A stretch of 32,222 bases of DNA from Clostridia bacterium (lineage in GTDB: Bacteria > Bacillota > Clostridia > Oscillospirales > Acutalibacteraceae). The DNA is taken from contig JAFUQS010000070.1 of NCBI GenBank assembly GCA_017472225.1, positions 1 to 32,222 of the forward strand, in the 5' to 3' direction. The position numbers and the translations under genes are program-made. Position 1 is the stretch's first letter. Each line of letters starts with the position of its first letter. Below are positions 4,446 to 25,475 of the stretch, piece after piece. The notes below the pieces were generated by a model. It was not told the origin of the DNA. It worked only from the letters and a program-made list of their open reading frames with translations, and searched no databases.

Positions 4446-4490
4446 TAAAAAATACAGACACACCACAAAACGGTATGTCTGTATTTTTAT
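4446..4490. terminator. Bidirectional terminator between GH36 and Rrf2 genes
   Basis: ATACAGACA (4452-4460) and TGTCTGTAT (4476-4484) pair, with ACC/GGT continuing the stem after one mismatch and a 7-nt loop. T5 follows on the plus strand, and A6 precedes it, giving a T-run on the minus strand, so it can serve both convergent genes. The Rrf2 stop codon lies in the T-run. Confidence 0.8.
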
Positions 4491-4924
4491 ATCATATAAT
4501 CATCGGCAGGGTTTTCCTTGTGCTTATCCAGAATATCCTGCAGTGTGATACCGTCAAGATACTCGGTTACCACACTGTATAAGCCCTGCCACACAGGGAG
4601 AGTAATGCACTCTGCGCACCGTTCACATTCATTCGGCTCATATTCCAGACAGGAAACAGGGGCAAGTGTACCTTCAGTTAATCGGAGAATTTCCCCAACA
4701 GTATATTTTTCCGGAGCTTTTGCAAGCTTGTAGCCACCCTGAAAGCCTCGGTTTGTTCTTAAAAAATCAGTTTTATTGAACACGGGAATAATCTGTTCCA
4801 GATATTTTTTTGAAACATTCTGACGCTGAGCAATGTCCTTCAAAGCAATGTAGCCATCATCCTTATGCTCAGCCAGGTCAAGCATCATGCGTAATGCATA
4901 TCTTCCTTTGGTTGAAATCTTCAT
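4487..4924 (-). CDS. Rrf2 family regulator with IscR-like cysteines (CymR/IscR type)
   Basis: A 145-residue Rrf2-family winged-helix DNA-binding protein. The family hallmark M-K-I-S-T-K-G-R-Y-A-L-R is at the N-terminus, and the recognition helix is around S-K-K-Y-L-E-Q. The start is set at 4924 because GAGGAG lies 8 nt upstream; an extension to 5011 would read through the cysK terminator and its own promoter. Cysteines occur at 92, 100, 103 and 106, the region where IscR carries Fe-S ligands (Cys92, 98, 104), whereas the cysteine regulator CymR lacks such a cluster. The neighbours are cysK and metY, so control of cysteine or sulfide assimilation is likely. Whether it senses an Fe-S cluster or a CysK complex, as CymR does, is open. 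Confidence 0.88.
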   Translation of the reverse strand: MKISTKGRYALRMMLDLAEHKDDGYIALKDIAQRQNVSKKYLEQIIPVFNKTDFLRTNRGFQGGYKLAKAPEKYTVGEILRLTEGTLAPVSCLEYEPNECERCAECITLPVWQGLYSVVTEYLDGITLQDILDKHKENPADDYMI

Positions 4925-4952
4925 TTTCAATCTCCTCAAAGATTTTAATAAT

Positions 4953-4984
4953 CCTATAATAACATATTTTTTATAGGTTTTCAA
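4953..4984 (-). promoter_or_regulatory. Promoter of the Rrf2 gene with CCTATAA/TTATAGG half-sites
   Basis: On the minus strand TTGAAA (4984-4979), a 17-nt spacer and TATTAT (4961-4956). The half-site AAAACCTATAA begins next to the -35 box and TTATAGG overlaps the -10 box. The AAAACCTAT half-site also occurs in the metY operator, suggesting autoregulation, though the spacing between half-sites differs (15 nt here, 7 nt there). Confidence 0.55.
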
Positions 4985-4990
4985 GTTCAC

Positions 4991-5028
4991 ATAAAAAGTC
5001 ACCGATGCCATAATTTACAGCATCGGTG
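4991..5028 (-). terminator. Terminator of the metY-cysK operon
   Basis: CACCGATGC (5000-5008) and GCATCGGTG (5020-5028) form a perfect 9-bp stem with an 11-nt loop. Read on the minus strand it is followed by ACTTTTTA. It lies 15 bp after the cysK stop codon. Confidence 0.8.
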
Positions 5029-5042
5029 GTTTTGCAATATAA

Positions 5043-5975
5043 TCAATCGGCAAAAAGCGAAGTGGATAAATACCTGTCCCCCGTGTCAGGCAGAAGCACA
5101 ACAATAGTTTTCCCTTCATTTTCGGAACGCTTTGCAAGCTCTATTGCTGCCCGGACTGCGGCTCCTGAGGAAATTCCCACAAGAATACCCTCACTTTTAC
5201 CGATAAGTCTTCCCGTCGCAAAGGCATCTTCGTTTGACACCGGAACAATCTCGTCATAAATATTTGTGTTGAGAACCTCGGGAACAAAGCCTGCACCGAT
5301 GCCCTGAATTTTATGAGCACCTGCTATCCCTGTGGAAAGCACGGCTGAATCAGCAGGCTCAACAGCAACCACCTTAATGTCGGGATTCTGCTTTTTCAGA
5401 TATTCGCCGACACCGGTAATTGTACCGCCTGTCCCTACACCCGCAACAAAGATATCCACCTTGCCGTCTGTATCCTCGTAGATTTCGGGGCCTGTATTTT
5501 CTCTGTGCGCTTTTGGGTTGGCAGAATTAACAAACTGTCCCGGAATAAAGCTGTCCGGAATTGCTGAAGCTAATTCTTCCGCCTTTGCAATTGCGCCCTT
5601 CATACCCTTGGCACCCTCCGTCAGAACAAGCTCTGCCCCATAAGCTTTCACTAACTGTCTGCGCTCAACCGACATTGTTTCGGGCATAACAATGATAACA
5701 CGGTATCCCCTTGCCGCAGCAACCGATGCAAGACCTATACCCGTGTTGCCCGAGGTGGGTTCAATAATAACTGAGCCGGGTTTTAATTTGCCTGTTGCTT
5801 CAGCATCGTCAATCATAGCCTTTGCAACACGATCCTTAACAGATCCGGCGGGATTGAAATATTCAAGCTTGGCAACGACCTTTGCTTTGAGTTTAAGATT
5901 TTTTTCAATATTTGTCAGCTCAAGTAAAGGAGTTTTTCCTATAAGCTGATCGGCAGATTTAAAAATATTTGACAT
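5043..5975 (-). CDS. cysK: Cysteine synthase (O-acetylserine sulfhydrylase)
   Basis: A 310-residue PLP enzyme making cysteine from O-acetylserine and sulfide in the cytoplasm. The PLP lysine is Lys47 in N-P-A-G-S-V-K-D-R, the substrate loop T-S-G-N-T-G is at 74-79, and the glycine-rich phosphate loop G-T-G-G-T-I-T-G is near 180. Length matches the CysK/CysM family. GGGAGG lies 8 nt before the ATG. It follows metY by only 17 bp, so the two are co-transcribed, and the terminator at 4991-5028 closes the unit. The C-terminus ends in S-L-F-A-D rather than the usual Ile; in other bacteria the C-terminal end of serine acetyltransferase, not of CysK, mediates complex formation, so this has no clear consequence. 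Confidence 0.95.
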
Positions 5976-5992
5976 AACAACGCCTCCCGATA

Positions 5993-7276
5993 TTATTTCA
6001 CTGCATCAAAGCCCTTCTGAAGGTCGGCAAGGATATCATCAATATGCTCTGTGCCGATTGAAAGACGGATGGTGTTGGGCTTGATACCCTGATCTGACAA
6101 TTCTTCTTCAGAAAGCTGACTATGGGTGGTTGTTGCCGGATGAATAACAAGACTCTTTACATCTGCAACATTGGCAAGAAGTGAAAAAATCTTCAGACTG
6201 TCGATAAATTTGTGAGCTTCCTTCTGTCCGCCCTTAATTTCGAAGGTAAAAATTGAGCCTCCTCCATTCGGAAAATAACGCTGATAAAGTGAGTTATCCG
6301 GGTGGGAAGCAAGTGAGGGGTGATTTACCCTGTCAACCTGCGGATGATTCCGGAGAAAATCAACAACCTTTTTGGTGTTTTCACTGTGACGCTCAATGCG
6401 AAGGGACAAGGTTTCAATGCCTTGCAAAAGAAGAAAAGCAGCAAAGGGAGAAATTGTTGCACCGGTGTCACGAAGAAGAATAGCACGTATATAAGTCACA
6501 AATGCAGCAGCACCGACAGCTTTAACAAAGGATACACCGTGATAGCTTGGGTTAGGCTCTGCAATTGCAGGATATTTGCCTGATTCTGCCCAATCAAATT
6601 TGCCTGAATCAACGATAATTCCGCCAAGAGTAGTACCATGACCGCCAAGGAATTTTGTTGCAGAGTGAACGACGATATCTGCACCGTGTTCAATGGGACG
6701 GATAAGATAAGGCGTACCAAAGGTATTATCAACAACAAGAGGCAGACCATGCTTATGAGCCAGCTCGGCCAAGGCATCGATATCGGGAATATCGCTGTTA
6801 GGGTTACCGAGAGTTTCAATATAAATCGCTCTTGTATTTTCCTGTATTGCAGCTTCGACTTCATCAAGGTTGTGAATGTTTACAAATGAAGCAGTAATAC
6901 CGAAATTTGGCAGAGTATGAGCAAGAAGATTGTAGCTGCCGCCGTATATGGTTTTCTGAGCCACAAAGTGACCTCCGTTTTGTCCGAGTGCTTCAAGAGT
7001 ATAAGTAATTGCCGCAGCTCCGGAAGCGAGAGCAAGTGCCGCCACACCACCTTCAAGGGCTGCTACACGCTGTTCGAGAACATCCTGAGTGGAATTTGTG
7101 AGTCTGCCGTAAATATTACCTGCATCTGCAAGACCAAAGCGTGCCGCTGCGTGGGCAGAATTTTTGAAAACATAAGATGTTGTTGCATAAATGGGTACAG
7201 CACGGGCATCAGTTGCAGGATCGGGGTTTTCCTGACCTACATGTAGCTGGAGAGTTTCAAATTTAAGTTCTGACAT
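5993..7276 (-). CDS. metY: O-acetylhomoserine sulfhydrylase (aminocarboxypropyltransferase)
   Basis: A 427-residue Cys/Met-metabolism PLP enzyme of the MetY type, which makes homocysteine from O-acetylhomoserine and sulfide. The PLP lysine is Lys208 in [12 protein letters not shown]. Other features are Y-G-R-L-T-N-S-T near 56-63 and a long insertion in the G-K-F-D-W region, typical of MetY rather than MetB/MetC. It is the first gene of the metY-cysK operon, so sulfide can flow to either homocysteine or cysteine. Its start is preceded by AAAGGAAA. The 140-nt leader shows no S-box or T-box consensus that I can recognise. Control is probably through the palindrome on its promoter. Confidence 0.93.
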
Positions 7277-7510: not shown

Positions 7511-7543
7511 AAAAAAACTGACCTCGAAAAACCGAAGTCAGTA
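7511..7543 (-). terminator. Terminator of the ABC importer operon
   Basis: ACTGAC (7518-7523) and GTCAGT (7538-7543) pair, extended by TCG/CGA after one mismatch. On the minus strand it is followed by seven T. It lies 40 bp after the stop of the ATPase gene. Confidence 0.75.
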
Positions 7544-7582: not shown

Positions 7583-8332
7583 TTATTGACCCAAAGCATC
7601 ATGAAGTCTGTTCCATGTTTCACCGTAGCCTTCACTTGCAGGAGTGACAGGCTTGGGAATTCTGTTCTGCTCATCAATGATGATATTACCCTTTTTATCC
7701 ATCACAAGAACCCGTGTTCCGAGAACAAGAGCCTCCTGAATGTTGTGGGTAATGAAAATAACGGTTACACCCGATTGTTCATGAATAAGGTGCAATTCAG
7801 CCTGAAGCTTATTTCTCGTCATGGCATCAAGAGCTGCAAAGGGTTCATCCATAAGAATAATATCGGATTTAAGAGCAAGAGCCTTTGCTATTGCAACCCT
7901 CTGCTTCATGCCGCCTGAAAGCTCATGAGGATAATTCTTCTGCTTGCCGTCAAGGTCAACCTTTCTGAGTGCATCATCAGAAATTTCCTTGAGCATTTTT
8001 TTATCCTTCATCCCCTGAACCTTTAGCGGATATTGGATATTCTTTTCAACAGTCTTCCACGGATAAAGCTGATTGAAATCCTGAAACACCATCATTCTGT
8101 CTGTTCCGGGCTTTTTAACCTCTTTGCCGCAGGCTGTGATTTTTCCTTCAAAATCCTCAAAGCCTGCAACACAGCGAATCAGCGTTGATTTGCCGCAGCC
8201 GGAAGGACCGAGTATACAGACAAATTCACCTTTCTCAATTGTAAGGTTAATATTTTTGAGAATGGTGGCTGATACATTCTGAGAGTGATAGGTTTTGGTG
8301 AGATTTTCAATCTTAAGAATTTCTTTGTTCAT
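7583..8332 (-). CDS. ABC importer ATPase, SsuB/TauB/NrtD family
   Basis: A 249-residue ATP-binding subunit when started at the ATG at 8332, whose codon overlaps the permease stop codon in an ATGA junction. The reading frame is open further upstream, but that part is the permease gene in another frame. Walker A G-P-S-G-C-G-K-S-T is at 42-50, the Q-loop near 84, the signature L-S-G-G-M-K-Q-R at 138-145, Walker B I-L-M-D-E-P near 159-164, and the switch His in F-I-T-H-N. The P-W-K-T-V segment after the Q-loop is usual in sulfonate, taurine and nitrate importers. It powers uptake through the adjacent permease. The substrate cannot be read from this subunit. Confidence 0.92.
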   Translation of the reverse strand: MNKEILKIENLTKTYHSQNVSATILKNINLTIEKGEFVCILGPSGCGKSTLIRCVAGFEDFEGKITACGKEVKKPGTDRMMVFQDFNQLYPWKTVEKNIQYPLKVQGMKDKKMLKEISDDALRKVDLDGKQKNYPHELSGGMKQRVAIAKALALKSDIILMDEPFAALDAMTRNKLQAELHLIHEQSGVTVIFITHNIQEALVLGTRVLVMDKKGNIIIDEQNRIPKPVTPASEGYGETWNRLHDALGQ

Positions 8333-9111
8333 CTGACCATACCCCACTTTCTGACAGTGTGTTTTTCGATATTGGCAAAAATACCGTATTCCACAATTAC
8401 ACCGACAAGAATAATGAGAATCAATGCGGCATAAACACTCGGAAAGCTGAGCCACAGGGTACGGGCGTTGTTGATATATGTGCCGATACCTGCTGAGGAG
8501 GCAACACCGAAAATCATTTCTGCCGAAATGAGACCTCGCCAGGCTCTTGCCCAACCAACACGAACACCTGAAATAATGCTTGAGAAGGATGAGGGAATAT
8601 AAATTCCGAAAATGAGTCCTGTTCTGCTCAAGCCGATGTTTCTGCCTGATTCAACGTGCATTTTCGGAACGGACTTGAAGCCGTCAATAATGCTTCGTGA
8701 CATTGGCCACACAACGGAATGAACAACAAGAACGATTATAGTTGTGTCTGTTGCGCCGATTGTAATCATAAGAATCGGCATAAGTGCCACAGCGGGCAAA
8801 AGATCGCAAATCGAAACAATCAGGTTATAAACCGTGTTGAAAATTTCACTTGCAACAGAAAGTCCTGAGAAGGCAAAAGCCAGAGCCATACCGATACCGA
8901 GACCTTCTGCAATGAGAAGCAATGACTTGCCGAGATATTGCAAAATAGGGCGAACATCGCTTATGAACATATCTTCATAAAGTGTTTTCAGAATTACGCC
9001 GAGTCTCGGAACTGCCATAATATCTCTGTGAACGGCATACAATTCCCAAAGGACCAAAACGGCGACAATAAATAACACTTTTATTATCAGTTTCTGATAT
9101 TTTTTCATCAT
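8329..9111 (-). CDS. ABC importer permease, SsuC/TauC family
   Basis: A 260-residue integral membrane permease with about six helices. It has the BPD-type EAA loop, here in the region G-L-S-R-T-G-L-I-F-G-I-Y-I-P (about 160-175), which docks to the ATPase. Two ATG codons stand in tandem at 9111 and 9108. GGGAG is 4 nt from the first and 7 nt from the second, so the second may be the true start. Its stop codon overlaps the ATPase start, and the binding-protein gene ends 12 bp upstream, giving a binding protein-permease-ATPase operon. Confidence 0.92.
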   Translation of the reverse strand: MMKKYQKLIIKVLFIVAVLVLWELYAVHRDIMAVPRLGVILKTLYEDMFISDVRPILQYLGKSLLLIAEGLGIGMALAFAFSGLSVASEIFNTVYNLIVSICDLLPAVALMPILMITIGATDTTIIVLVVHSVVWPMSRSIIDGFKSVPKMHVESGRNIGLSRTGLIFGIYIPSSFSSIISGVRVGWARAWRGLISAEMIFGVASSAGIGTYINNARTLWLSFPSVYAALILIILVGVIVEYGIFANIEKHTVRKWGMVR

Positions 9112-9123
9112 AGTCTCCCGTTG

Positions 9124-10095
9124 TCAGTTGCCTTTTACATTGGAAAATGTAAGCTCAGCAAAATCGACTTCCTTTTCAATAAATTCTGCACGGAACATAA
9201 ATTCTGCCATTTGTGTTGCACCCTTAAGCTCAGGGAAGAACATACAGGTTTCATCCTGAAGGTCACTGAGGGTGGTTTCAACATCCTGACTTAAATAGCC
9301 TGCAATAATTTCTGCGGCCTCCTGCTCGTTTTCATTGATAAAGGTGATGGCTTCGGCAAAGCCTTCCGTTACTGCATTGAAAAGTGCCTCATTTTCCGCC
9401 TGAAGGGAGGTTGAAGCAAGTGCAACAAGGAATGTGTTACCGTCGGGCCAGATTTCATTTACAGCCGTGATTTCTGTAAACTTTTCATTTTCTCTTTCTC
9501 TGTTAATAAAGGGAGAAGATGTGAGATGAAGCTTATAGGTGCCCGCTTCAAGGGCTGCAAAGCCTTCAGCATGTGACATCTTTACAATGTTACTGTCGAG
9601 AGCATGAGCATCGCCAAGCTCCTTTTCAGCCGCCATTGCAAGAAGGATATGCTGAATTGAACCGATATTGACAAGAGCAATCTGCTCACTTCCGATATCG
9701 GAGAGAGTTTTGATTGAAGGATCATTGGTCATGAGTCCATGGGTCTGTGAGCAAAGACCCGTGAGAACCTTTGCGGGAACACCGCTTGAAACAGCCGAAA
9801 CAGCGGGCGCAATACCCATGCAGCCGATATCAATTGTTCCGCCAATGATACCTGTGTTTATATCTGCACCGGAATCAAGCTTCTGGAAGGTTACCTCGAC
9901 CTGTTCACCGGTTGCTTGCTTATAATTTTCCTGTATAAGTGATTTGGCTTCGAGAATGTGTACCGGAGCATAGCCGATACCACCCTGATAAGCAATTGTG
10001 ATTTGTTCTGCTCCGGCTTTTTCACCGTTGCTGCCGCAAGCGGCAAAGGTAAGCAGAATACCGGCGATTAACAAAGCTGACAAAATTTTTTTCAT
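9124..10095 (-). CDS. ABC importer substrate-binding lipoprotein, SsuA/TauA/NMT1-like
   Basis: A 323-residue binding protein. I start it at the ATG at 10095, which gives a clean lipoprotein signal peptide: M-K-K-I-L-S-A-L-L and a lipobox ending T-F-A-A-C with Cys20. GGAG lies 9 nt upstream. A TTG five codons earlier is less likely. The mature part opens with I-T-I-A-Y-Q-G-G-I-G-Y-A-P, typical of the NMT1/SsuA fold, and continues with G-G-T-I-D-I-G-C-M-G. It should be anchored outside the membrane and deliver ligand to the permease. Proximity to metY-cysK makes an organosulfur ligand such as a sulfonate possible, but no monooxygenase or sulfonatase is present, so that is only inference. Confidence 0.88.
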   Translation of the reverse strand: MKKILSALLIAGILLTFAACGSNGEKAGAEQITIAYQGGIGYAPVHILEAKSLIQENYKQATGEQVEVTFQKLDSGADINTGIIGGTIDIGCMGIAPAVSAVSSGVPAKVLTGLCSQTHGLMTNDPSIKTLSDIGSEQIALVNIGSIQHILLAMAAEKELGDAHALDSNIVKMSHAEGFAALEAGTYKLHLTSSPFINRERENEKFTEITAVNEIWPDGNTFLVALASTSLQAENEALFNAVTEGFAEAITFINENEQEAAEIIAGYLSQDVETTLSDLQDETCMFFPELKGATQMAEFMFRAEFIEKEVDFAELTFSNVKGN

Positions 10096-10176
10096 TTCAT
10101 TCGACTCCAATCTAAAAAAATTATCACAAGGTAATATAGCTTTTTACTACCATTACTTTAGACGAGCCGATTTTTT

Positions 10177-10209
10177 ATGAAATAAGCTGATTTTTTCAGC
10201 TTATTTCAT
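10177..10209. repeat. Perfect 14-bp inverted repeat at the end of the SGNH gene
   Basis: ATGAAATAAGCTGA (10177-10190) and its exact complement (10196-10209) enclose five T. The right arm encodes the last codons and stop of the SGNH gene. Read in the direction of that gene the hairpin is followed by A6, not T, so it is not a standard intrinsic terminator. It may protect the 3' end of the operon transcript or shield the ABC operon promoter. Confidence 0.6.
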
Positions 10210-11341
10210 CCCCTGTTATTTCCGGTTTTGTTTCATCTGTTTCATCACTGATAAGCTTGGTTGTTTCCTCCTGAGTTGTTTCTTCCGGAACAACTTCAAC
10301 CGAAACATATTTGAGATCTTCCTCGGTAAGATAAGGAGAAATCAAATTGTAATACTTTTCCCCTGCCCTGTCCCACGAAGCCAATCTTTCGGTGCCTCTC
10401 TTATCCTTAAAGCCGTAGTTTTCAATAAGATAGCGTGAAAGATAGTCCGTGAACTTGATTGAGCCGTGAATGTTGGTGTGGTCACCGTTATAATAGTCCG
10501 TCGTCAAATCGAGGTCCATTTCTTCAACAAGCTCATGCATATTGAGAACATCAAAGCCTCTTGAACGGATAAGCTCCATAACTGTATTCTGCTGACCACG
10601 CTTTTCTTCATCGGTAAGACTCTGCGGAGTTACAACGAAAAGTACCTTAACCTGCTCCTGCTCACAATAATCCATAAGGTCATTAAGACCGGTTGTGAGA
10701 GTTTCGGAAATGGGCGCTGTTTCTTCATAATCAAACAATCCGCCGCTTACATCTTCAACCTTGCTGAGGAAGCTCTTATAGCTGCTTGCACTTTTATAAG
10801 CATCGGTTGTTTTCTTGAAATCAAAGGATACAAGGTCACTCCAACGGTCATGGAAGCGGATTATCGGGAAATAAAATTCCATTCTGTCAGAAAAAGACAT
10901 TCCGCCCAATTCTGAAAGATAATTTATCATATCATATTTGTTTTCAGTATAAGGATAACCGAAAATCAACCTGTGAGTGTTGATTGCATTATATTGCTCA
11001 GTAACCGATGCCACATTGACAATATATAATGCGTCAGGCTGGGTTTTTCTCGCATCTGCAATCAGATACTTTGCAGCAAGAATCTGCTGCTTTGAGGAAG
11101 AAAGAGAATACACGGTAAGTCCGTATTCCACCCATGCCACAGGGGCAGTCCAGAATGCATAGGTTGCACTTGAACCGAGAAAAACTGCGTCAAGAGAATT
11201 CTCTTTTTCATCAAAAAAGCCTTCTATTCTTTTATGGTCTCTTGTATCCGCATCGCCCGTGAGCAAATTCTGAACACCGACAAAGCAGAAAGCAAATATG
11301 AGTACAAATATAACAACTTTGAAAAATCTTTTAATCTTCAT
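10196..11341 (-). CDS. Membrane-anchored SGNH protein, DltD/AlgJ-like (last gene of the acyl-transfer operon)
   Basis: A 381-residue protein with a single N-terminal membrane helix (about 8-24) and an extracellular SGNH/GDSL-like domain. Block I is D-A-V-F-L-G-S-S (51-58), where G-S-S replaces G-D-S as in DltD. Block V is D-H-T-N-I-H-G (287-293), with His288 in the position of the catalytic His; the Asp three residues before it is Asn285, so the triad may use another Asp. The C-terminal tail (about 355-381) is Thr/Glu-rich and low complexity. Its start overlaps the end of the ligase gene by 11 bp. In Dlt and alginate systems such a protein acts with an MBOAT partner to place or move an acyl group on an envelope polymer. 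The same role is inferred here. Confidence 0.8.
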   Translation of the reverse strand: MKIKRFFKVVIFVLIFAFCFVGVQNLLTGDADTRDHKRIEGFFDEKENSLDAVFLGSSATYAFWTAPVAWVEYGLTVYSLSSSKQQILAAKYLIADARKTQPDALYIVNVASVTEQYNAINTHRLIFGYPYTENKYDMINYLSELGGMSFSDRMEFYFPIIRFHDRWSDLVSFDFKKTTDAYKSASSYKSFLSKVEDVSGGLFDYEETAPISETLTTGLNDLMDYCEQEQVKVLFVVTPQSLTDEEKRGQQNTVMELIRSRGFDVLNMHELVEEMDLDLTTDYYNGDHTNIHGSIKFTDYLSRYLIENYGFKDKRGTERLASWDRAGEKYYNLISPYLTEEDLKYVSVEVVPEETTQEETTKLISDETDETKPEITGDEIS

Positions 11342-12812
11342 TTTGACTTCTCAGTGCCCTTCTTAAAAGTTTTCCGTTAAAGGAACGGGGAATTACATCA
11401 ATCTGTTCGATAATTGCCGGAACCTTATAAGGCTCAAGGTTTGAGGCAAGGTGATTTCTTATTGATACTGAGTCAAAATCAGCGCCCCTTTTCACCTGTA
11501 TGTAAAGCTTGGGCACACTGCCTTTGAGAGCATCCTTTATTCCTATGCAGCCGCAATCCTCAACATCGGGATGCTTCTTTGCAACATCTTCAATTTCATC
11601 AGGCGAAACCTTGTTGCCGCCGACATTGATAACATCACCCTTACGGCCGAGAAGCACAATGTCACCGTCCTCATCAAAATAGGCTTCATCGTTTGAATAA
11701 ATTCCGCCTTCGATGAGAACTCTCTTGGTTTCTTCCTCATCCTTCCAATAGCCACTCATGTTCATTTTTCCGAATGAAGCAAGAAGACCTGTATTTTCTG
11801 CAGAGGAGGTGATTTCATTCCGGTTTTCATCCACAATGATGATTTTTGCATTGTAAGCAGGCTTCCCTATGCATTTAGGCTTATCATTATCAGTGTTGAA
11901 GTCGTAAATACAGATGCAGCCGCTTTCGGTACTGCCGTAGAAATTATAAAGCCTGGTATCAGGAAGCAATGAACGGAGTGAAGCCTTGTCGCCGTCTGCC
12001 AAGGGGGCTGAGCCGAACTGAATATAACGCATAGTATCCTTGTACTCGGCAAATTTGCCCTTTGAAAGGCGAAGAAGAACAGTCAGTGCTGTGGGAACAA
12101 GGCAGATTGAATTGACACCGTAGGTATCCATCATTCTGAAAAATCCCATAACATTCATAACACCTGTTACAAGCACCACTGTTGAGCCGTTGACCATGTT
12201 GCCGTAATATCTTCTGAGACCGAAGGAATGATTCAAGGGAGAAGGATCCATTTCAACATTATCCGGAAGCATTTTAACGCCATGTATAATGTTTTCGGCA
12301 ATGGCAATATCATTCTTGTGTGAAATTACAATACCTTTTTCCTTGCCTGTTGTACCCGTGCTGAAAAGAAGCTCGGATACAGTATCCTCTTCAGGAAGCT
12401 CATAAGAGCTGAGAGGCTCACATGACCTTGCTGCTTCTGTTATTTCATCAACAGCAAAATTTCTGACTTCATCAGATGAATCATGCTTTTTGAGGGTGAC
12501 AGCAAATTTTGCTTCAGCCGAGGAAGCTATTCTTAAGGTCTTGTCCCATGCACAATTTCTTTCAACAGGAACAAAAATTGCCCCGATAAGCTGAATTGCA
12601 AGCTCCAAAGCAAGAAAATCAATCGTCTGCGAAGCTTCAACAACAATCTTTTCACCCTTTTCAATGCCAAGGGTACCGAGTGCCGAAGCCAAACGGCAAA
12701 TTTCAGCCTTGTACTGTGAATATGTTACTGTGCGGGCTTCGTCAATAAGGCAAAGCTTATCAGGCTGTGCTTCAGCATGGCTGAAAACAGCTTCAACAAT
12801 GGATCTGAACAT
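11331..12812 (-). CDS. AMP-forming acyl ligase that probably loads the operon's carrier protein
   Basis: A 493-residue ANL-superfamily adenylating enzyme starting at 12812, where GGAGGT lies 8 nt upstream. Motif A3 L-F-S-T-G-T-T-G-K-E-K-G is at 149-160, A5 Y-N-F-Y-G-S-T-E at 289-296, the hinge region L-L-G-R-K-G-D at about 387-393, and A10 N-G-K-L-L-R-R with catalytic Lys481. Motif A4 is P-L-N-H-S-F-G-L (192-199), the form seen in acyl- and aryl-acid ligases, not the Phe-Asp-x-S form in which DltA and NRPS domains bind an alpha-amino group. The substrate is therefore probably a carboxylic acid without that amino group. It sits between an SLC13-type transporter and the SGNH gene and is predicted to charge the 73-residue carrier protein. 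Confidence 0.85.
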   Translation of the reverse strand: MFRSIVEAVFSHAEAQPDKLCLIDEARTVTYSQYKAEICRLASALGTLGIEKGEKIVVEASQTIDFLALELAIQLIGAIFVPVERNCAWDKTLRIASSAEAKFAVTLKKHDSSDEVRNFAVDEITEAARSCEPLSSYELPEEDTVSELLFSTGTTGKEKGIVISHKNDIAIAENIIHGVKMLPDNVEMDPSPLNHSFGLRRYYGNMVNGSTVVLVTGVMNVMGFFRMMDTYGVNSICLVPTALTVLLRLSKGKFAEYKDTMRYIQFGSAPLADGDKASLRSLLPDTRLYNFYGSTESGCICIYDFNTDNDKPKCIGKPAYNAKIIIVDENRNEITSSAENTGLLASFGKMNMSGYWKDEEETKRVLIEGGIYSNDEAYFDEDGDIVLLGRKGDVINVGGNKVSPDEIEDVAKKHPDVEDCGCIGIKDALKGSVPKLYIQVKRGADFDSVSIRNHLASNLEPYKVPAIIEQIDVIPRSFNGKLLRRALRSQNED

Positions 12813-12829
12813 AGAGATATACCTCCGAT

Positions 12830-14254
12830 TTAAACCGTACTGTATGCCGGCCAATATGTTAACATAAGATAACTTGCAACACTCATAAGTATAATAACTA
12901 TCAAGGTAAGAAGCAGTCCTTCCTTGAACATATACTTCGGCTTAAGGCCGTATCCGACAGGAATTGCACGGATTGATGTTGGAAGTGTGTAAGAAAGATT
13001 TACACCGATTGATGCTATGTAAATATAAGGAATAGGATTTTTTCCCATACCGCTGATAATGCTTATGACAATGGGAATTGCCACGGCAGCAGTTGCAGTG
13101 TTGCTTGTAACATCCGACAGAATAATTGTGAAGGTTACAATTATCAACACAGTAAGGAAGCCGCCTGAAAGGTCAGCAGCGGAAACAAGTGAGCCGATCA
13201 CCTCAGCCGCACCGCTGTTGTTGATGAGAGTACCTGCAGCCATACCGCCTGCAAAGATATAAATAAGATCCCAGATGATTTTACCCTGAGTTACCTTCCA
13301 CTTCATAAGGCGCTCGCCGTCTTCCTTCTTGATGAAAAAGGAAAGAACTGCACAAATTATGAACACATAAGCAGGCTTGAGCCCCGGAAGGAATGATTGG
13401 TAAAGCTGACGGGTAAAGGAAAGGATTGTAGCCGTTGCAAAAAGTGCAAGGGACCACTTTTCTTCCCTTTTCATTTTCGGGAACTCCTTATAAACATTTG
13501 CAAAGTATTCCTTTGAGCCTGCGAGTCTTTCACCCTTCTTGCAGTGCCTGAGAACAAGATAAAGAATGTTGCTCACAACAAGAATCAGGAAAATGGGGAA
13601 GAAGCGGATAACCCATGAGGTATACATATATTCCTCACCGGTGAGCTGCTCAATATAATCCACCGTAACGAGGTTCATTGCCCCGCCAAGAGGCGTAGCA
13701 ATTCCGCCGACACCCGCAGCGTAAGCGATTGTCAGAAGAATAAGTGAACCGCTTTTGCTTTTTGAAATATCATTTTCACCAATGAATTTAAGCATTGAAA
13801 CGGCAATCGGGGTAATAGTTGCGCAAACAACCGCATTCGGCAGCACTGATGAAAGCAAAGCCGAAAGCAGATACCAGAAAATCACCTGTGTGCTGAGCTT
13901 TCCTCCGATGAGCGAAAGGCACTTTGCGGCAATTCTTTTGTCAAGACCCGTAACCTCCATGGAAACATCAAGAATTGATGCACCGAGCAAAAGGAGAATT
14001 GTTTCAGAAGCATAGTTCGATATAATCGCAGACATATCAACCAGGCTGAAAAGTGCATTCACCACAATGGGAAGAAATGCCGTTACAGCATAGTCAACGG
14101 GGCCTGTTACCCACCAGAACGCCATCCATATAACCGTTCCTATTGCTCCCCTTGCCGACTGAGTGGGAAAAACACTTTCAGGCAACAGAAGATAGCACAT
14201 AAGGAACAGCGCCGGGCCTAACAGCAAGAATACTATATTTCTTTTAGACTTCAT
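12830..14254 (-). CDS. SLC13/DASS-family anion transporter with altered signature motifs
   Basis: A 474-residue membrane protein with about 11-12 helices, of the divalent anion:sodium symporter (DASS, SLC13) family that imports succinate, malate, citrate or sulfate. The second Ser-Asn-Thr sodium-site motif is intact (T-S-N-T-A-T, 383-388). The first is replaced by L-P-N-A-V (138-142). The usual T-P-P-N loops are also changed, to A-T-P-L-G-G-A-M-N (186-194) and L-P-T-S-I-R-A-I-P (424-432). The substrate or the ion coupling may therefore differ from classic members. It starts 4 bp after the carrier-protein gene and ends 17 bp before the ligase, deep inside the operon, so it most likely supplies the acid that the ligase activates. 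A transport role unrelated to the ligase cannot be excluded. Confidence 0.85.
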   Translation of the reverse strand: MKSKRNIVFLLLGPALFLMCYLLLPESVFPTQSARGAIGTVIWMAFWWVTGPVDYAVTAFLPIVVNALFSLVDMSAIISNYASETILLLLGASILDVSMEVTGLDKRIAAKCLSLIGGKLSTQVIFWYLLSALLSSVLPNAVVCATITPIAVSMLKFIGENDISKSKSGSLILLTIAYAAGVGGIATPLGGAMNLVTVDYIEQLTGEEYMYTSWVIRFFPIFLILVVSNILYLVLRHCKKGERLAGSKEYFANVYKEFPKMKREEKWSLALFATATILSFTRQLYQSFLPGLKPAYVFIICAVLSFFIKKEDGERLMKWKVTQGKIIWDLIYIFAGGMAAGTLINNSGAAEVIGSLVSAADLSGGFLTVLIIVTFTIILSDVTSNTATAAVAIPIVISIISGMGKNPIPYIYIASIGVNLSYTLPTSIRAIPVGYGLKPKYMFKEGLLLTLIVIILMSVASYLMLTYWPAYSTV

Positions 14255-14258
14255 TTTT

Positions 14259-14480
14259 TTACATCAACTCCTCAACCATTTCCCACATTGTTTCAACAGA
14301 CTGAAAATAGGGAGGCTGAATATACTCCATAGTAACTGAAATATCAAAGGTTTCCTCAAGCTTTGAAATGATGGTCACAACATCAACCGAATCGATGATA
14401 CCGTCATCGTAAAGGTTCTTTTCCTTGTCGAAATCGATGTCGGGATAAGCTTCCTGTAATGCTTTTTTGAGTTCTTCCAT
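14259..14480 (-). CDS. Acyl carrier protein, DltC-like
   Basis: A 73-residue four-helix carrier protein. The phosphopantetheine site is Ser31 in D-D-G-I-I-D-S-V-D, close to the D-G-L-L-D-S form of DltC and the D-S-L of fatty-acid ACPs. It is acidic and lacks any signal peptide, so it acts in the cytoplasm or at the inner face of the membrane. AGAGGT lies 8 nt before the ATG. It sits between the MBOAT gene (24 bp away) and the transporter gene (4 bp away). No phosphopantetheinyl transferase is in the window, so a housekeeping one must serve it. It is too far from any fatty-acid genes to be the FAS ACP. Confidence 0.9.
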   Translation of the reverse strand: MEELKKALQEAYPDIDFDKEKNLYDDGIIDSVDVVTIISKLEETFDISVTMEYIQPPYFQSVETMWEMVEELM

Positions 14481-14504
14481 GTTTTTTACCTCTTTTCGTT
14501 AGAA

Positions 14505-16082
14505 TCAGAATTGGTCGTATATAAAGCTGCTTGCATTATAACCGGGTCCGTAGATACCGAAAATAATGACAGCAAAAATACCTAAGAAAATCATGAGCCA
14601 TCTGAACACAATACCCTGCTTGTGCAGCTCTTCTCTTACAGACATACGTTCCTGAAGCATATCCACAACCCACAGAACGAGAATTGCCGATATTACCAAA
14701 ACAAAGTTTTTCCAATCAAGACCGTATTCAAATATAGCGTCTCCCGTAACATATTCCATATGCAGACCGGAGAACATACCAATGAAAATTTTAAGCGCTG
14801 CCTTGAGTCCGTTGGCTCTGAAGAACACTCTGCCAATGCAGCAGATTGTGAAGGTTCTTGCCATCTGCCAAAGCTTCCACGAAAAGCTTTCGGTGTTGAT
14901 TCCGAGCTTCTCATTTGCCTTTTTGCAGAAGGGCTCAAATACTGTTCCTGCAATCATTATTGCCGCATAGAACAAGCCCCATGCAACATAATTCCATGAT
15001 GCACCATGCCATGTTCCCGTTGTTATCCACACAATGAAAATCGGGAAGCAGGAAGCAAACAGCTCACTGAATTTTTTGCTTTTTGAATTCTTTTTAACCT
15101 TCTTGACAAGTCTGCTGACGGAAATGGGATAATAGATATAATCCTTGAACCATTCACCCAGAGACATATGCCAGCGTCTCCAGAATTCGGGGATATTTTT
15201 TGAGAAATAGGGGTGGTCGAAGTTTTTCTGCAGCTTAATGCCGAGCATTTCCGAAACACCTGAAACAATGTCAATGCAGCCGGAGAAATCAGCATAAATC
15301 TGAATTGAATAAAGCACTGTGGCGATTACAAGAATCAAGCCTGCATATTCTTCGTAATTTCCATAAATTTCACTCACGAAAATATTGAGTCTGTCTGCAA
15401 TTACAAGCTTTTTGAATAAGCCCCATATAAGAAGCTGGGCACCGCTTGAAACAGCCTTACCGTCAAAGGCGATACCGTCATCGGATAGCTGCTGCCTGAA
15501 TCTGTTGAACCTGTCAATGGGTCCCTGAACAACATGAGGGAAATAAGTGAGATAAATTGCATAATTGAGGAAAGAGCTTTCTGCCTTATAACGCTTCCAA
15601 TAAATATCAAGAACATAGCTGACAGCCATGAAGGTATAAAATGAAACGCCCAAAGGTACTATCATTTTGAACATTCCGAGCTGAGGGAAATTTATTGCTG
15701 AAAGAAGACCGTTGACATTGGTAAGTGCAAAAACCGTGTACTTGCACACAACAAGCAGACCAACGGCAACAACAAGAGCAAGAATAAGAGACTTCTTCGC
15801 CTTAGCCTTACACTCGGCTCTGACCTTCTTTTTTTCTGCCGGAAGATTACATTCCTTTAACAGAGCTGCCTCCTGCTCATATATTTTGCCCATGGATCTT
15901 CCTGCAAAAAAAGTTGCCAGAAGAGTGGCTGTGATAAACGGCACATACTTTATATCTGCATAAACATAGAAGAATACATTTGCAATAAGCATAATATACT
16001 TCTGAAATTTCTTCGGAACGGCGTAATACAGAAGAACCACAATTCCGACAAACAGCAGAAACGAAAAAGACTGATAACCCAT
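14505..16082 (-). CDS. MBOAT O-acyltransferase, DltB/AlgI-like
   Basis: A 525-residue polytopic membrane protein starting at the ATG at 16082; an upstream ATG at 16148 lies at the -10-like box and has no ribosome site. The MBOAT hallmarks are E-F-W-R-R-W-H-M-S-L with His305 and T-G-T-W-H-G-A-S-W with catalytic His359. The segment V-P-L-G-V-S-F-Y-T-F and the Y-F-P-H-V-V-Q-G-P-I segment are typical of the AlgI/PatA/DltB branch. These proteins take an acyl group from a carrier on the inside and pass it to an acceptor outside. It is the first gene of a five-gene operon and would use the carrier protein encoded next. The donor is inferred from context; the acceptor polymer is unknown. Confidence 0.92.
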   Translation of the reverse strand: MGYQSFSFLLFVGIVVLLYYAVPKKFQKYIMLIANVFFYVYADIKYVPFITATLLATFFAGRSMGKIYEQEAALLKECNLPAEKKKVRAECKAKAKKSLILALVVAVGLLVVCKYTVFALTNVNGLLSAINFPQLGMFKMIVPLGVSFYTFMAVSYVLDIYWKRYKAESSFLNYAIYLTYFPHVVQGPIDRFNRFRQQLSDDGIAFDGKAVSSGAQLLIWGLFKKLVIADRLNIFVSEIYGNYEEYAGLILVIATVLYSIQIYADFSGCIDIVSGVSEMLGIKLQKNFDHPYFSKNIPEFWRRWHMSLGEWFKDYIYYPISVSRLVKKVKKNSKSKKFSELFASCFPIFIVWITTGTWHGASWNYVAWGLFYAAIMIAGTVFEPFCKKANEKLGINTESFSWKLWQMARTFTICCIGRVFFRANGLKAALKIFIGMFSGLHMEYVTGDAIFEYGLDWKNFVLVISAILVLWVVDMLQERMSVREELHKQGIVFRWLMIFLGIFAVIIFGIYGPGYNASSFIYDQF

Positions 16083-16092
16083 TTTTCTGCAA

Positions 16093-16110
16093 ATCCTCAC
16101 TTTCCTTGAA
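16093..16110 (-). repeat. 18-nt leader shared with the GH43 gene (copy 1)
   Basis: TTCAAGGAAAGTGAGGAT on the minus strand lies just before the MBOAT start. An identical 18-mer stands before the GH43-like gene at 31152-31169. Both contain the GAGGA ribosome site, and this identity supports the start at 16082. Confidence 0.7.
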
Positions 16111-16157
16111 AAAATGAAATATTTTCCTAAGTTTACATAATTACCCATAATAATACT

Positions 16158-23804: not shown

Positions 23805-25475
23805 TTATTCATCAATATGTGCGAAGAAGAATTCTTTTCTTTCATCGGTGTTGATAACGGTAACCGGCTTAATCTGATTGAGGATTCTGCCCTGCTTTTT
23901 GAGCATATCCTTGTAATCATTATATGTATCCTTCTTGAGTAAGGTAACCTTTGCGGGACCGATCATACCCCAACGACGGTACTTGAAGTACTTTTCGTTA
24001 CTTTCGCTGAGCCACTTATCAAGACTTGCTTCAATTTCAGGAAGCTTATCCTTGGAAATTTCGCCTTCCGGCTCAACAAACATTACATAGCGTACGGGAT
24101 CGCTCTGAAGGTCATCATAGAAGCTGTAGCCCTTGAAGGAAACACCCATTTCCTCCTGAACCTTCTGGGCTGCCCAGTCAACCATCTGAGTAGTTGTCTT
24201 TTCGTTTGCGATGTTCATTGCAAGATTATTTCTGTAAAGGAATTCAATCTTCGGGGTCTTGTTATAGAAGCCTGTTACACGAACAACGTCTTCAATCTGA
24301 TAACGGTAAAGACCTGAGAAGTTTGTAACAACAAGCTCATAATCCTTGCCCACTTCAACCTCACCGATTGTGAGAGGTCTTTCACATTCGGGATCATCAA
24401 CGGGAATAAATTCAAAGAAGATTGAACGGGGAAGAAGAACTGCATCGTTTACATCAAGCTCAACGGGCATTGCCATGTAGCCTTCTGCTGCTGCATAACC
24501 CATGTTATGAATGGGAGCATCACCGATATGCTTACGAAGCTTCTGAACATAGAACTTAAGGTTTGAACCAACCATACCGTAAGACCATACGAAATCAGGC
24601 CAGATTCTCTTTGCGATGGGGTCATCAAAGCCCTTTTCACATTCTCTGCGGATTTCAGCAGCTCTTTTGGGCATGGGCTTGAACTTCTTTTCCCACTTTG
24701 CACGAAGCTCCGGCGGACATTTAACGCTCGGATCAATTGTGCCCATTTCGATATCCTTGCACATCATTTCCCAATTTGCTTCAAGATAGTCAAACATACC
24801 TGTAAGGAGTGTTACAACCATTGAGCCGAGGAAGGTAACATCACGGCGCTGAAGAGCAAAACGAAGATGGAAATATGTTGAATCAACTGCATCCTCATTT
24901 TCGGGATACATGAAATCATTGGGAGTTGTCATGAAGAACTTTGAAATAGGCTTAAGGTATGTGAAGGGAACCTGACCTGCACCGTTACCCATCTTGCCGT
25001 CCTTCATTTTGTGTCCTGTGAGAATAATTGCAACGGGACCTATCTGCTTCGGGAACTTTCTTCCATGCTTTTCAAACCAGATTTTTGCACAGGCGGGAGT
25101 TGCAGCAAAGCCCATGGACTGCATATTGAAAAGTGCCTTTGCAGACTGAGGAAGCACCTTAGGCTTACCGACTGAACCTGAAGATGTGCAATATCTTACG
25201 CACTTTCTTGCCATCATAAGATTCTTTTCGCCATTGAGCATACGGTCTACATAATCTGAATATGTATCATAGGTTGAAAGGGGCACGATTCTCTGGAACT
25301 CTTCAACAGAGTGAACATCCTTGAAGCCGATTTTTTTACCGTATTCAGTGTCCTTATTTTCATCCATAATCTGAAGAAGGATTTTTTCCTGAGTTTCAAC
25401 AGGAACAGATGTGAAATGGTTAACGCCCTTGAAAACTATTTCACCAAGCTTTACGCCGATATCTGACATTGCCAT
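23805..25475 (-). CDS. GH3 auxin-responsive-promoter family acyl-adenylating enzyme
   Basis: A 556-residue protein of the GH3 family, known in plants for joining auxin or jasmonate to amino acids via acyl-adenylates. The ATP motifs are present in bacterial form: C-T-S-S-G-S-V-G-K-P-K (96-106), G-Y-A-A-A-E-G near 340, and Y-R-Y-Q-I-E-D-V-V-R-V-T-G-F near 410, followed by a C-terminal domain. No signal peptide is present, so it is cytoplasmic. GAGG stands 8 nt before the ATG. It is monocistronic with its own promoter and terminator. The acid and the amine partner are unknown; bacterial members are common in Clostridia and Bacteroidetes but little studied as far as I know. Confidence 0.9.
   Translation of the reverse strand: MAMSDIGVKLGEIVFKGVNHFTSVPVETQEKILLQIMDENKDTEYGKKIGFKDVHSVEEFQRIVPLSTYDTYSDYVDRMLNGEKNLMMARKCVRYCTSSGSVGKPKVLPQSAKALFNMQSMGFAATPACAKIWFEKHGRKFPKQIGPVAIILTGHKMKDGKMGNGAGQVPFTYLKPISKFFMTTPNDFMYPENEDAVDSTYFHLRFALQRRDVTFLGSMVVTLLTGMFDYLEANWEMMCKDIEMGTIDPSVKCPPELRAKWEKKFKPMPKRAAEIRRECEKGFDDPIAKRIWPDFVWSYGMVGSNLKFYVQKLRKHIGDAPIHNMGYAAAEGYMAMPVELDVNDAVLLPRSIFFEFIPVDDPECERPLTIGEVEVGKDYELVVTNFSGLYRYQIEDVVRVTGFYNKTPKIEFLYRNNLAMNIANEKTTTQMVDWAAQKVQEEMGVSFKGYSFYDDLQSDPVRYVMFVEPEGEISKDKLPEIEASLDKWLSESNEKYFKYRRWGMIGPAKVTLLKKDTYNDYKDMLKKQGRILNQIKPVTVINTDERKEFFFAHIDE

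Follow-up and report, generated by a model that had tools for sequence, protein, structure and literature searches.

The described pathways closest to the locus considered here, those that pair an MBOAT acyltransferase with an SGNH protein, fall into two arrangements in the part of the published account on which we draw. In the Dlt system, a carrier protein donates to the MBOAT protein and the acyl group is placed on the Tyr of an FxYxxF motif, an acyl shuttle that is located in the microprotein DltX (PMC12148441). Other MBOAT-SGNH pathways (viz. those of the PatA type) are described there as using acyl-CoA and no carrier, with the hexapeptide fused to the MBOAT protein itself (PMC12148441). 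In the present work, we describe a minus-strand operon in a stretch of 32,222 nucleotides from a Clostridia bacterium of the family Acutalibacteraceae (assembly GCA_017472225.1, contig JAFUQS010000070.1, positions 1 to 32,222; hereafter, the window), which unites a carrier, a fused shuttle, a ligase that is not DltA, and linked importers, whereas the known pathways, within the part of the account drawn upon, have either the carrier or the fused shuttle (PMC12148441). The cassette has both because a carrier gene is present in the operon and its MBOAT protein ends in FIYDQF, and its architecture thus appears to be a mixed one; a search of the open literature found no description of the combination of a carrier with a fused shuttle.

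We propose, with a probability of roughly 0.6, that these genes constitute an operon for the acylation of an envelope polymer that is fed by its own importers. According to this proposal, the DASS transporter would take up a small organic acid, and the SsuABC-like importer encoded downstream would probably import acid as well; the ligase would adenylate the acid and load the acyl group onto the carrier protein of the operon; the MBOAT protein would transfer the acyl group, outside the membrane, to the Tyr in the FxYxxF tail that it carries at its own C-terminus; and from there the anchored SGNH protein would hand it on to a hydroxyl group on a surface polymer, which may be teichoic-acid-like. 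The features of the locus, in window coordinates, are:

14505..16148, minus strand: MBOAT acyltransferase (PF03062, 59.9 bits, E 3.4e-16; C-terminal FIYDQF; His of the WHG motif at residue 380)
14259..14480, minus strand: acyl carrier protein (ACP; PF00550, 26.4 bits, E 8.6e-6; phosphopantetheine Ser31 in a DS motif)
12830..14254, minus strand: DASS/SLC13-type anion transporter (PF03600, 157.7 bits, E 5.3e-46; PF00939, 124.9 bits, E 5.9e-36)
11331..12812, minus strand: AMP-forming ligase (PF00501, E 1.5e-56; PF13193; the listed open reading frame, ORF, extends to a TTG at 12854)
10196..11341, minus strand: putative membrane-anchored SGNH-like transferase in the DltD position (transmembrane-like segment at residues 9-27; G56, S58, D282, and H288 invariant)
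9124..10095, minus strand: SsuA/TauA-like solute-binding protein of an ABC importer (PF13379; TIGR01728, 87.6 bits, under cut-off; probable ATG at 10095)
8329..9111, minus strand: ABC importer permease (PF00528, E 7.4e-17)
7583..8554, minus strand: ABC importer ATPase (a listed ORF that overlaps the permease gene; PF00005, E 8.9e-31, from residue 99)
7517..7542, minus strand: terminator-like stem and T run 3' of the ATPase gene (a pattern match from a consensus scan)

A preliminary description of this DNA had placed five minus-strand genes at 10196..16148, and this was exact in every particular, including the spacings of 24, 4, 17, and -11 base pairs (bp) along the series MBOAT-ACP-DASS-ligase-SGNH; four of the five genes are named by Pfam. 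These spacings are counted with the ligase starting at the ATG at 12812, which is the start position in most relatives too. The operon is probably longer than five genes, with the binding protein, permease, and ATPase of an SsuABC/TauABC-type importer (7583-10110) following on the same strand 3' of the SGNH gene. The true start of the ATPase gene is probably near 8330, as indicated by the onset of the family match. The terminator-like stem likely marks the end of the transcription unit; the consensus scan that detected it returned 25 sites in the window against 12.5 expected in shuffles, and a promoter-like site, likewise a pattern match, precedes the gene that follows the stem. The complete parallel Dlt-like pathway that had been proposed for the five genes is sustained as to its parts, their motifs, and a ligase distinct from DltA, but not as to its completeness, the ABC importer and the acyl-shuttle motif of the MBOAT protein having been overlooked.

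Like Dlt (DltA, DltB, DltC, DltD, and DltX), the cassette is an operon with an AMP-forming ligase, a carrier, an MBOAT protein, and an anchored SGNH-like protein. Unlike Dlt, its ligase scores under the DltA cut-off and is without the Asp of motif A4, its SGNH protein is unmatched by the DltD family, and transporter genes lie within the operon; the FxYxxF motif is also on the MBOAT protein itself, whereas the account cited places that of Dlt on DltX. An MBOAT protein with a C-terminal shuttle hexapeptide and a separate SGNH-like protein are features shared with PatA/PatB and similar O-acetylation pathways (PMC12148441), from which the ligase and carrier genes of the window distinguish the cassette, those pathways being described as using acyl-CoA without a carrier (PMC12148441).

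Our analyses have identified 28 loci with related ligases, viz. 27 at an E-value of 1e-75 or better and one (G560) that was reached through its DASS gene; here and below, G and L numbers denote the genomes and loci compared, G000 being the window's own genome. The alignment contains 24 of these ligases and leaves out those of G025 (split between contigs) and G019 (a fragment), a G013 copy on contig C94 that repeats the one on C28, and that of G184, whose ORF was uncalled in L078. The wide searches scored the best few candidates per genome (3 for the ligase and 4 for DASS), and weaker relatives may be missing. The ligase is distinct from DltA in its family score, in its motifs, and in the tree. 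Its score against the DltA model TIGR01734 is 117.9 bits, below the cut-off of 559.85. The window ligase has motifs of the A3, A5, A8, and A10 types, and the residues at A4 are H-S or H-A in 24/24 cassette ligases and F-D, in the same columns, in 3/3 DltA-like rows, so that the Asp of the latter aligns with the residue next after the A4 His and not with the His. In DltA, the A4 Asp binds D-alanine at the amino group. A tree of 31 rows, with its control rows on long branches and a root chosen for display alone, places all 24 cassette ligases together (support 100/99), apart from the DltA-like rows; one further DltA-like row (L086), which is out of frame, was excluded from the controls and the tree. 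A second, more DltA-like ligase is encoded on contig C75 of the window's genome (TIGR01734, 293.8 bits, also under the cut-off), in a cassette (L033, G000:C75:8000-23000) that contains, besides this ligase, a GNAT protein, an ACP, an MBOAT protein with an FxYxxF tail, and an SGNH-like gene. A cassette similar to that of C75 is present in G006 (L104). Viral contigs were also scanned, in which the ligase alignment found one distant ligase only and the DASS alignment found nothing.

The cassette ligases share a further characteristic, which consists of an Arg followed by Arg or Lys five and six residues past the A4 His. This pair is found in 24/24 cassette ligases and in 0/7 controls (E. coli MenE, CaiC, FadD, and EntE, and three DltA-like rows), one DltA-like control having Lys at the first position; in the window ligase, numbered from the TTG, it is Arg214-Arg215 and the A4 His is His209. 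The pair suggests an acid with a second negative charge (dianionic), and the substrate would be a molecule whose far end is anionic, and not an amino acid. E. coli MenE was considered as a guide to an acid-binding Arg and dropped, its post-A4 Arg being Arg195 and not Arg222, with no Arg-Arg pair, and a literature search having listed no paper with R222. An AlphaFold model of the ligase made from 3 sequences has a predicted local distance difference test score (pLDDT) of 40.8, which is too low for placing the Arg pair in a pocket.

The DASS transporter matches the PDB profiles of NaDC and VcINDY over nearly the whole chain, and its scores with PF03600 (CitMHS) and PF00939 (Na_sulph_symp) are both over the cut-off, that with TIGR00785 (158.7 bits; cut-off 198.6) being below it. 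SLC13/DASS proteins carry two SNT motifs. Like VcINDY and NaDC3, the window protein retains the second of these; unlike them, it has PNA for the first, the combination of PNA with a second SNT being found in 9/9 homologues aligned, and an Arg (Arg429), invariant in these homologues, in the stretch that the alignment pairs with the TPPN loop. Close DASS relatives are present in 4/398 genomes of the family (E 1e-25 or better) and 3/394 genomes of the order (E 1e-40 or better). Searches with DASS alone led to six distinct genomes, in five of which (G000, G002, G006, G304, and G560) DASS lies directly upstream of the ligase, and the addition of G014, G010, and G025, which were found through their ligases, makes this 8/9; in the 8/8 cassette loci having DASS, 14 to 70 bp lie between it and the ligase that follows. 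The five-gene order of the window (MBOAT-ACP-DASS-ligase-SGNH), which the preliminary description had proposed to seek in other genomes, is repeated in three of them (G002, G010, and G014), with G025 having it split over two contig pieces, but different orders are found in G560 (SGNH-MBOAT-ACP-DASS-ligase) and G304 (MBOAT-SGNH-DASS-ligase-ACP). The tie between transporter and pathway that was claimed there is upheld by the position of DASS.

Sister cassettes in G023 and G033, of the same genus, and in G1061, of another family of the class, have the order MBOAT-SGNH-ligase-ACP, are without DASS, and adjoin a complete SsuABC-like importer that is 40-65% identical to that of the window (in L038, L039, and L080, the permease homologues are 54-65% and the ATPase homologues 57-59% identical). 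Supply by a transporter gains weight because these three sister cassettes carry a complete SsuABC-like importer in the place of DASS. The SsuA-like binding protein is rare (3/34 genomes of the genus and 1/300 genomes of a family sample), and it is beside a Dlt-like cassette in 4/4 known loci, window included, the G1061 locus having been reached via its ligase. The window importer is like SsuABC/TauABC in having a binding protein, permease, and ATPase of that type; unlike these, it is under the curated cut-offs of the families (TIGR01728 for the binding protein, 87.6 bits; cut-off 163.5) and linked to acylation cassettes. SaoX/SaoP, considered as a lead on what the ABC importer carries, pointed no further than a selenoproteome review. 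In the tree, the ligases linked to DASS or SsuABC and that of G778 form one 11-row group with a support of 100/99, on which the DASS label and the SsuABC label need two changes each. These results suggest that importers of different families were exchanged within one ligase lineage. Before the ligase in distant operons of G005 and G015 (L040 and L041) are LIV-type ABC genes and genes for an isochorismatase-family hydrolase, an amidohydrolase, and an MmgE/PrpD protein; these upstream genes suggest acid supply, and their products may synthesise a different acid on which the ligase acts. Transporter genes also lie close to some ligases that are not in the 11-row group, viz. SSF in G420, MFS on C135 of G193, CitMHS on C158 of G193 and in G092 and G088, and DctM, on the other strand, in G1047; no inference is drawn from them.

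The MBOAT protein scores 169.3 bits against the DltB model TIGR04091, below the cut-off of 375, and the DltB model is matched by 12/12 aligned MBOATs. Both motifs of the window protein are widely conserved, WHG in 24/25 MBOATs checked and C-terminal FxYxx[FY] in 25/25 (strict FxYxxF in 21/25). The MBOAT protein of G003 (L047:7071-8678) is missing WHG and has an intact FxYxxF tail. When a separate DltX-like ORF was sought among the window ORFs of 20-90 amino acids, the sole FxYxxF pattern near an end was antisense to the binding-protein gene. The D30 and S31 residues of the carrier are invariant in 12/12 aligned carriers, and its best curated match, a weak one, is DltC (NF003464, 32.4 bits; cut-off 68). 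The fifth gene is predicted to encode an SGNH-like protein, as expected from its anchor, a single N-terminal transmembrane-like segment (residues 9-27), and from the residues GxS and D..H (G56, S58, D282, and H288), presumably the marks of SGNH proteins, which are invariant in 11/11 aligned proteins. It has no Pfam or NCBIfam match at 0.001; the DltD family PF04914 reached E 0.11 in 1/11 of the aligned proteins, the window protein being unmatched, no credible match came from searching the PDB with the SGNH profile, and the pLDDT of an AlphaFold model made from 2 sequences (41.4) is too low to confirm the fold.

The acceptor is probably a surface polymer, because the G778 cassette is beside three CDP-glycerol glycerophosphotransferase genes, an IspD-type cytidylyltransferase gene, and an epimerase gene, which together form a teichoic-acid-type cluster, and the G1047 cassette adjoins a polysaccharide flippase-like gene; the polymer is perhaps teichoic-acid-like. 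Histidine kinase and response regulator genes are recognised upstream by Pfam in G010 and G023, and ORFs of like size stand in G002 and G033.

A more specific form of the proposal, which is tentative and which we regard as rather doubtful, is that this carrier-fed pathway decorates a teichoic-acid-like polymer, through ester bonds, with a dianionic acid taken up from outside (a dicarboxylate or sulfo-carboxylate), adding negative charge, the opposite of D-alanylation, and that importer families have been exchanged while the ligase lineage stayed the same. If the proposal of an importer-fed operon is right, these bacteria could rely for their surface chemistry on an externally acquired acid, and the exchange of importers would provide a route to identifying it.

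A number of observations weigh against the proposal of an importer-fed acylation operon. The best curated family matches of the ligase are acyl-CoA ligases, for which reason it might use CoA. The Arg pair is present whichever importer adjoins the ligase, and it may not read the acid because it is also found in ligases with other neighbours. The preliminary description held that absence of the transporter from most homologous loci would refute its proposal; DASS is present in 7/7 close loci (ligase identity of at least 54%), but 17/24 aligned ligases are without a close DASS relative beside them (some of these loci are cut by contig ends). No importer was recognised in the stretches examined at G003, C32 of G010, C13 of G002, G013, and G778, where part of the ORFs were scanned and some contigs are short; G778 is inside the 11-row group, and its ligase gene runs against the direction of its MBOAT, SGNH, and carrier genes. 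The SsuABC label alone was equally clustered in 53/500 shuffles, which is not beyond chance. In G006 (L035, contig C23), ACP, DASS, and ligase occur without MBOAT or SGNH and with no remnants of either, flanked by neighbours that match those in G014 in size; the nearest other MBOAT of this genome (39% identical) and an SGNH gene are ~17 kb away (L103), and no ligase or carrier was matched among the ORFs of the 19-kb stretch around that pair. One of the six close DASS genes, that of G588, follows an ATP-grasp gene. The linkage of DASS with the cassette is limited to the close subfamily, because distant relatives in a Hydrogenedentota metagenome-assembled genome (41%) and in Bacillus (29%) are outside any cassette. 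In the window itself, the SGNH gene and the binding-protein gene are separated by 100 bp, counted from the likely ATG.

Other explanations of the linked importers must be considered alongside this one. The ABC genes lie between the cassette and genes for O-acetylhomoserine sulfhydrylase, CysK, and an Rrf2 regulator, and the SsuA/TauA-like binding protein would suit their belonging with these sulfur genes and not with the acylation operon. However, at three other loci the same ABC genes adjoin a cassette, and the three sulfur genes were not found in the stretches examined (on the G033 contig, 197 bp remain beyond the ATPase gene), and in the window the terminator-like and promoter-like sites separate the ABC genes from the sulfur genes, which makes this explanation unlikely. 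Still less likely, in our estimation, is that the importers serve salvage, i.e., that they recover the acid or a breakdown product released from the surface polymer while the acid itself is made inside the cell. Salvage would yield the same gene linkage, and the difference in kind between the cassette-linked importers (DASS and SsuABC-like), as well as their apparent absence from the stretch examined in G778, is in keeping with it; against it are the placement of DASS just before the ligase gene, whose product acts first in the pathway, in every cassette locus having DASS, and the failure to recognise any acid-making gene in the operons with DASS or SsuABC, where part of the unmatched neighbours were scanned.

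Alternatives to acylation by an imported acid concern the ligase itself. It could be an acyl-CoA synthetase for the catabolism of the imported acid, with the cassette genes as mere neighbours, to which its curated matches lend some support, and DASS carriers often feed catabolism. We consider this improbable in view of the presence in the operon of a carrier gene, which overlaps the ligase gene in G023 (by 1 bp) and in G033 (by 4 bp), and of the association of the ligase with MBOAT, SGNH, and carrier across several gene orders. The overall Dlt-like gene set, the DltB-model matches of the MBOATs, and the weak DltC match of the carrier would also be compatible with a variant of D-alanylation or another aminoacylation, in which an amino acid would be the substrate of the ligase and the transporter would have no part. 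To this we give the least credence, since the ligase is far under the DltA cut-off, has H-S/H-A for F-D at A4, and belongs to a separate tree group, and since the same genome has the more DltA-like cassette at C75.

The sulfur genes of the window (4487-7276, minus strand), which encode the Rrf2 regulator, the cysteine synthase CysK, and the O-acetylhomoserine sulfhydrylase, are a probable separate cysteine/sulfur unit adjoining the SsuA-like importer. ATP-grasp genes were observed at two of the loci compared, viz. at L061:1892-4639, where a DASS relative that is 70-72% identical stands beside an ATP-grasp gene with a weak match to an L-amino-acid-ligase C-terminal domain, and in L074, where an ATP-grasp gene with similar matches is close to the ligase. 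The window also encodes a GH3-family protein at 23805-25475 on the minus strand (PF03321, PF23571, and PF23572); in plants, members of this family are acyl-adenylate amido synthetases.

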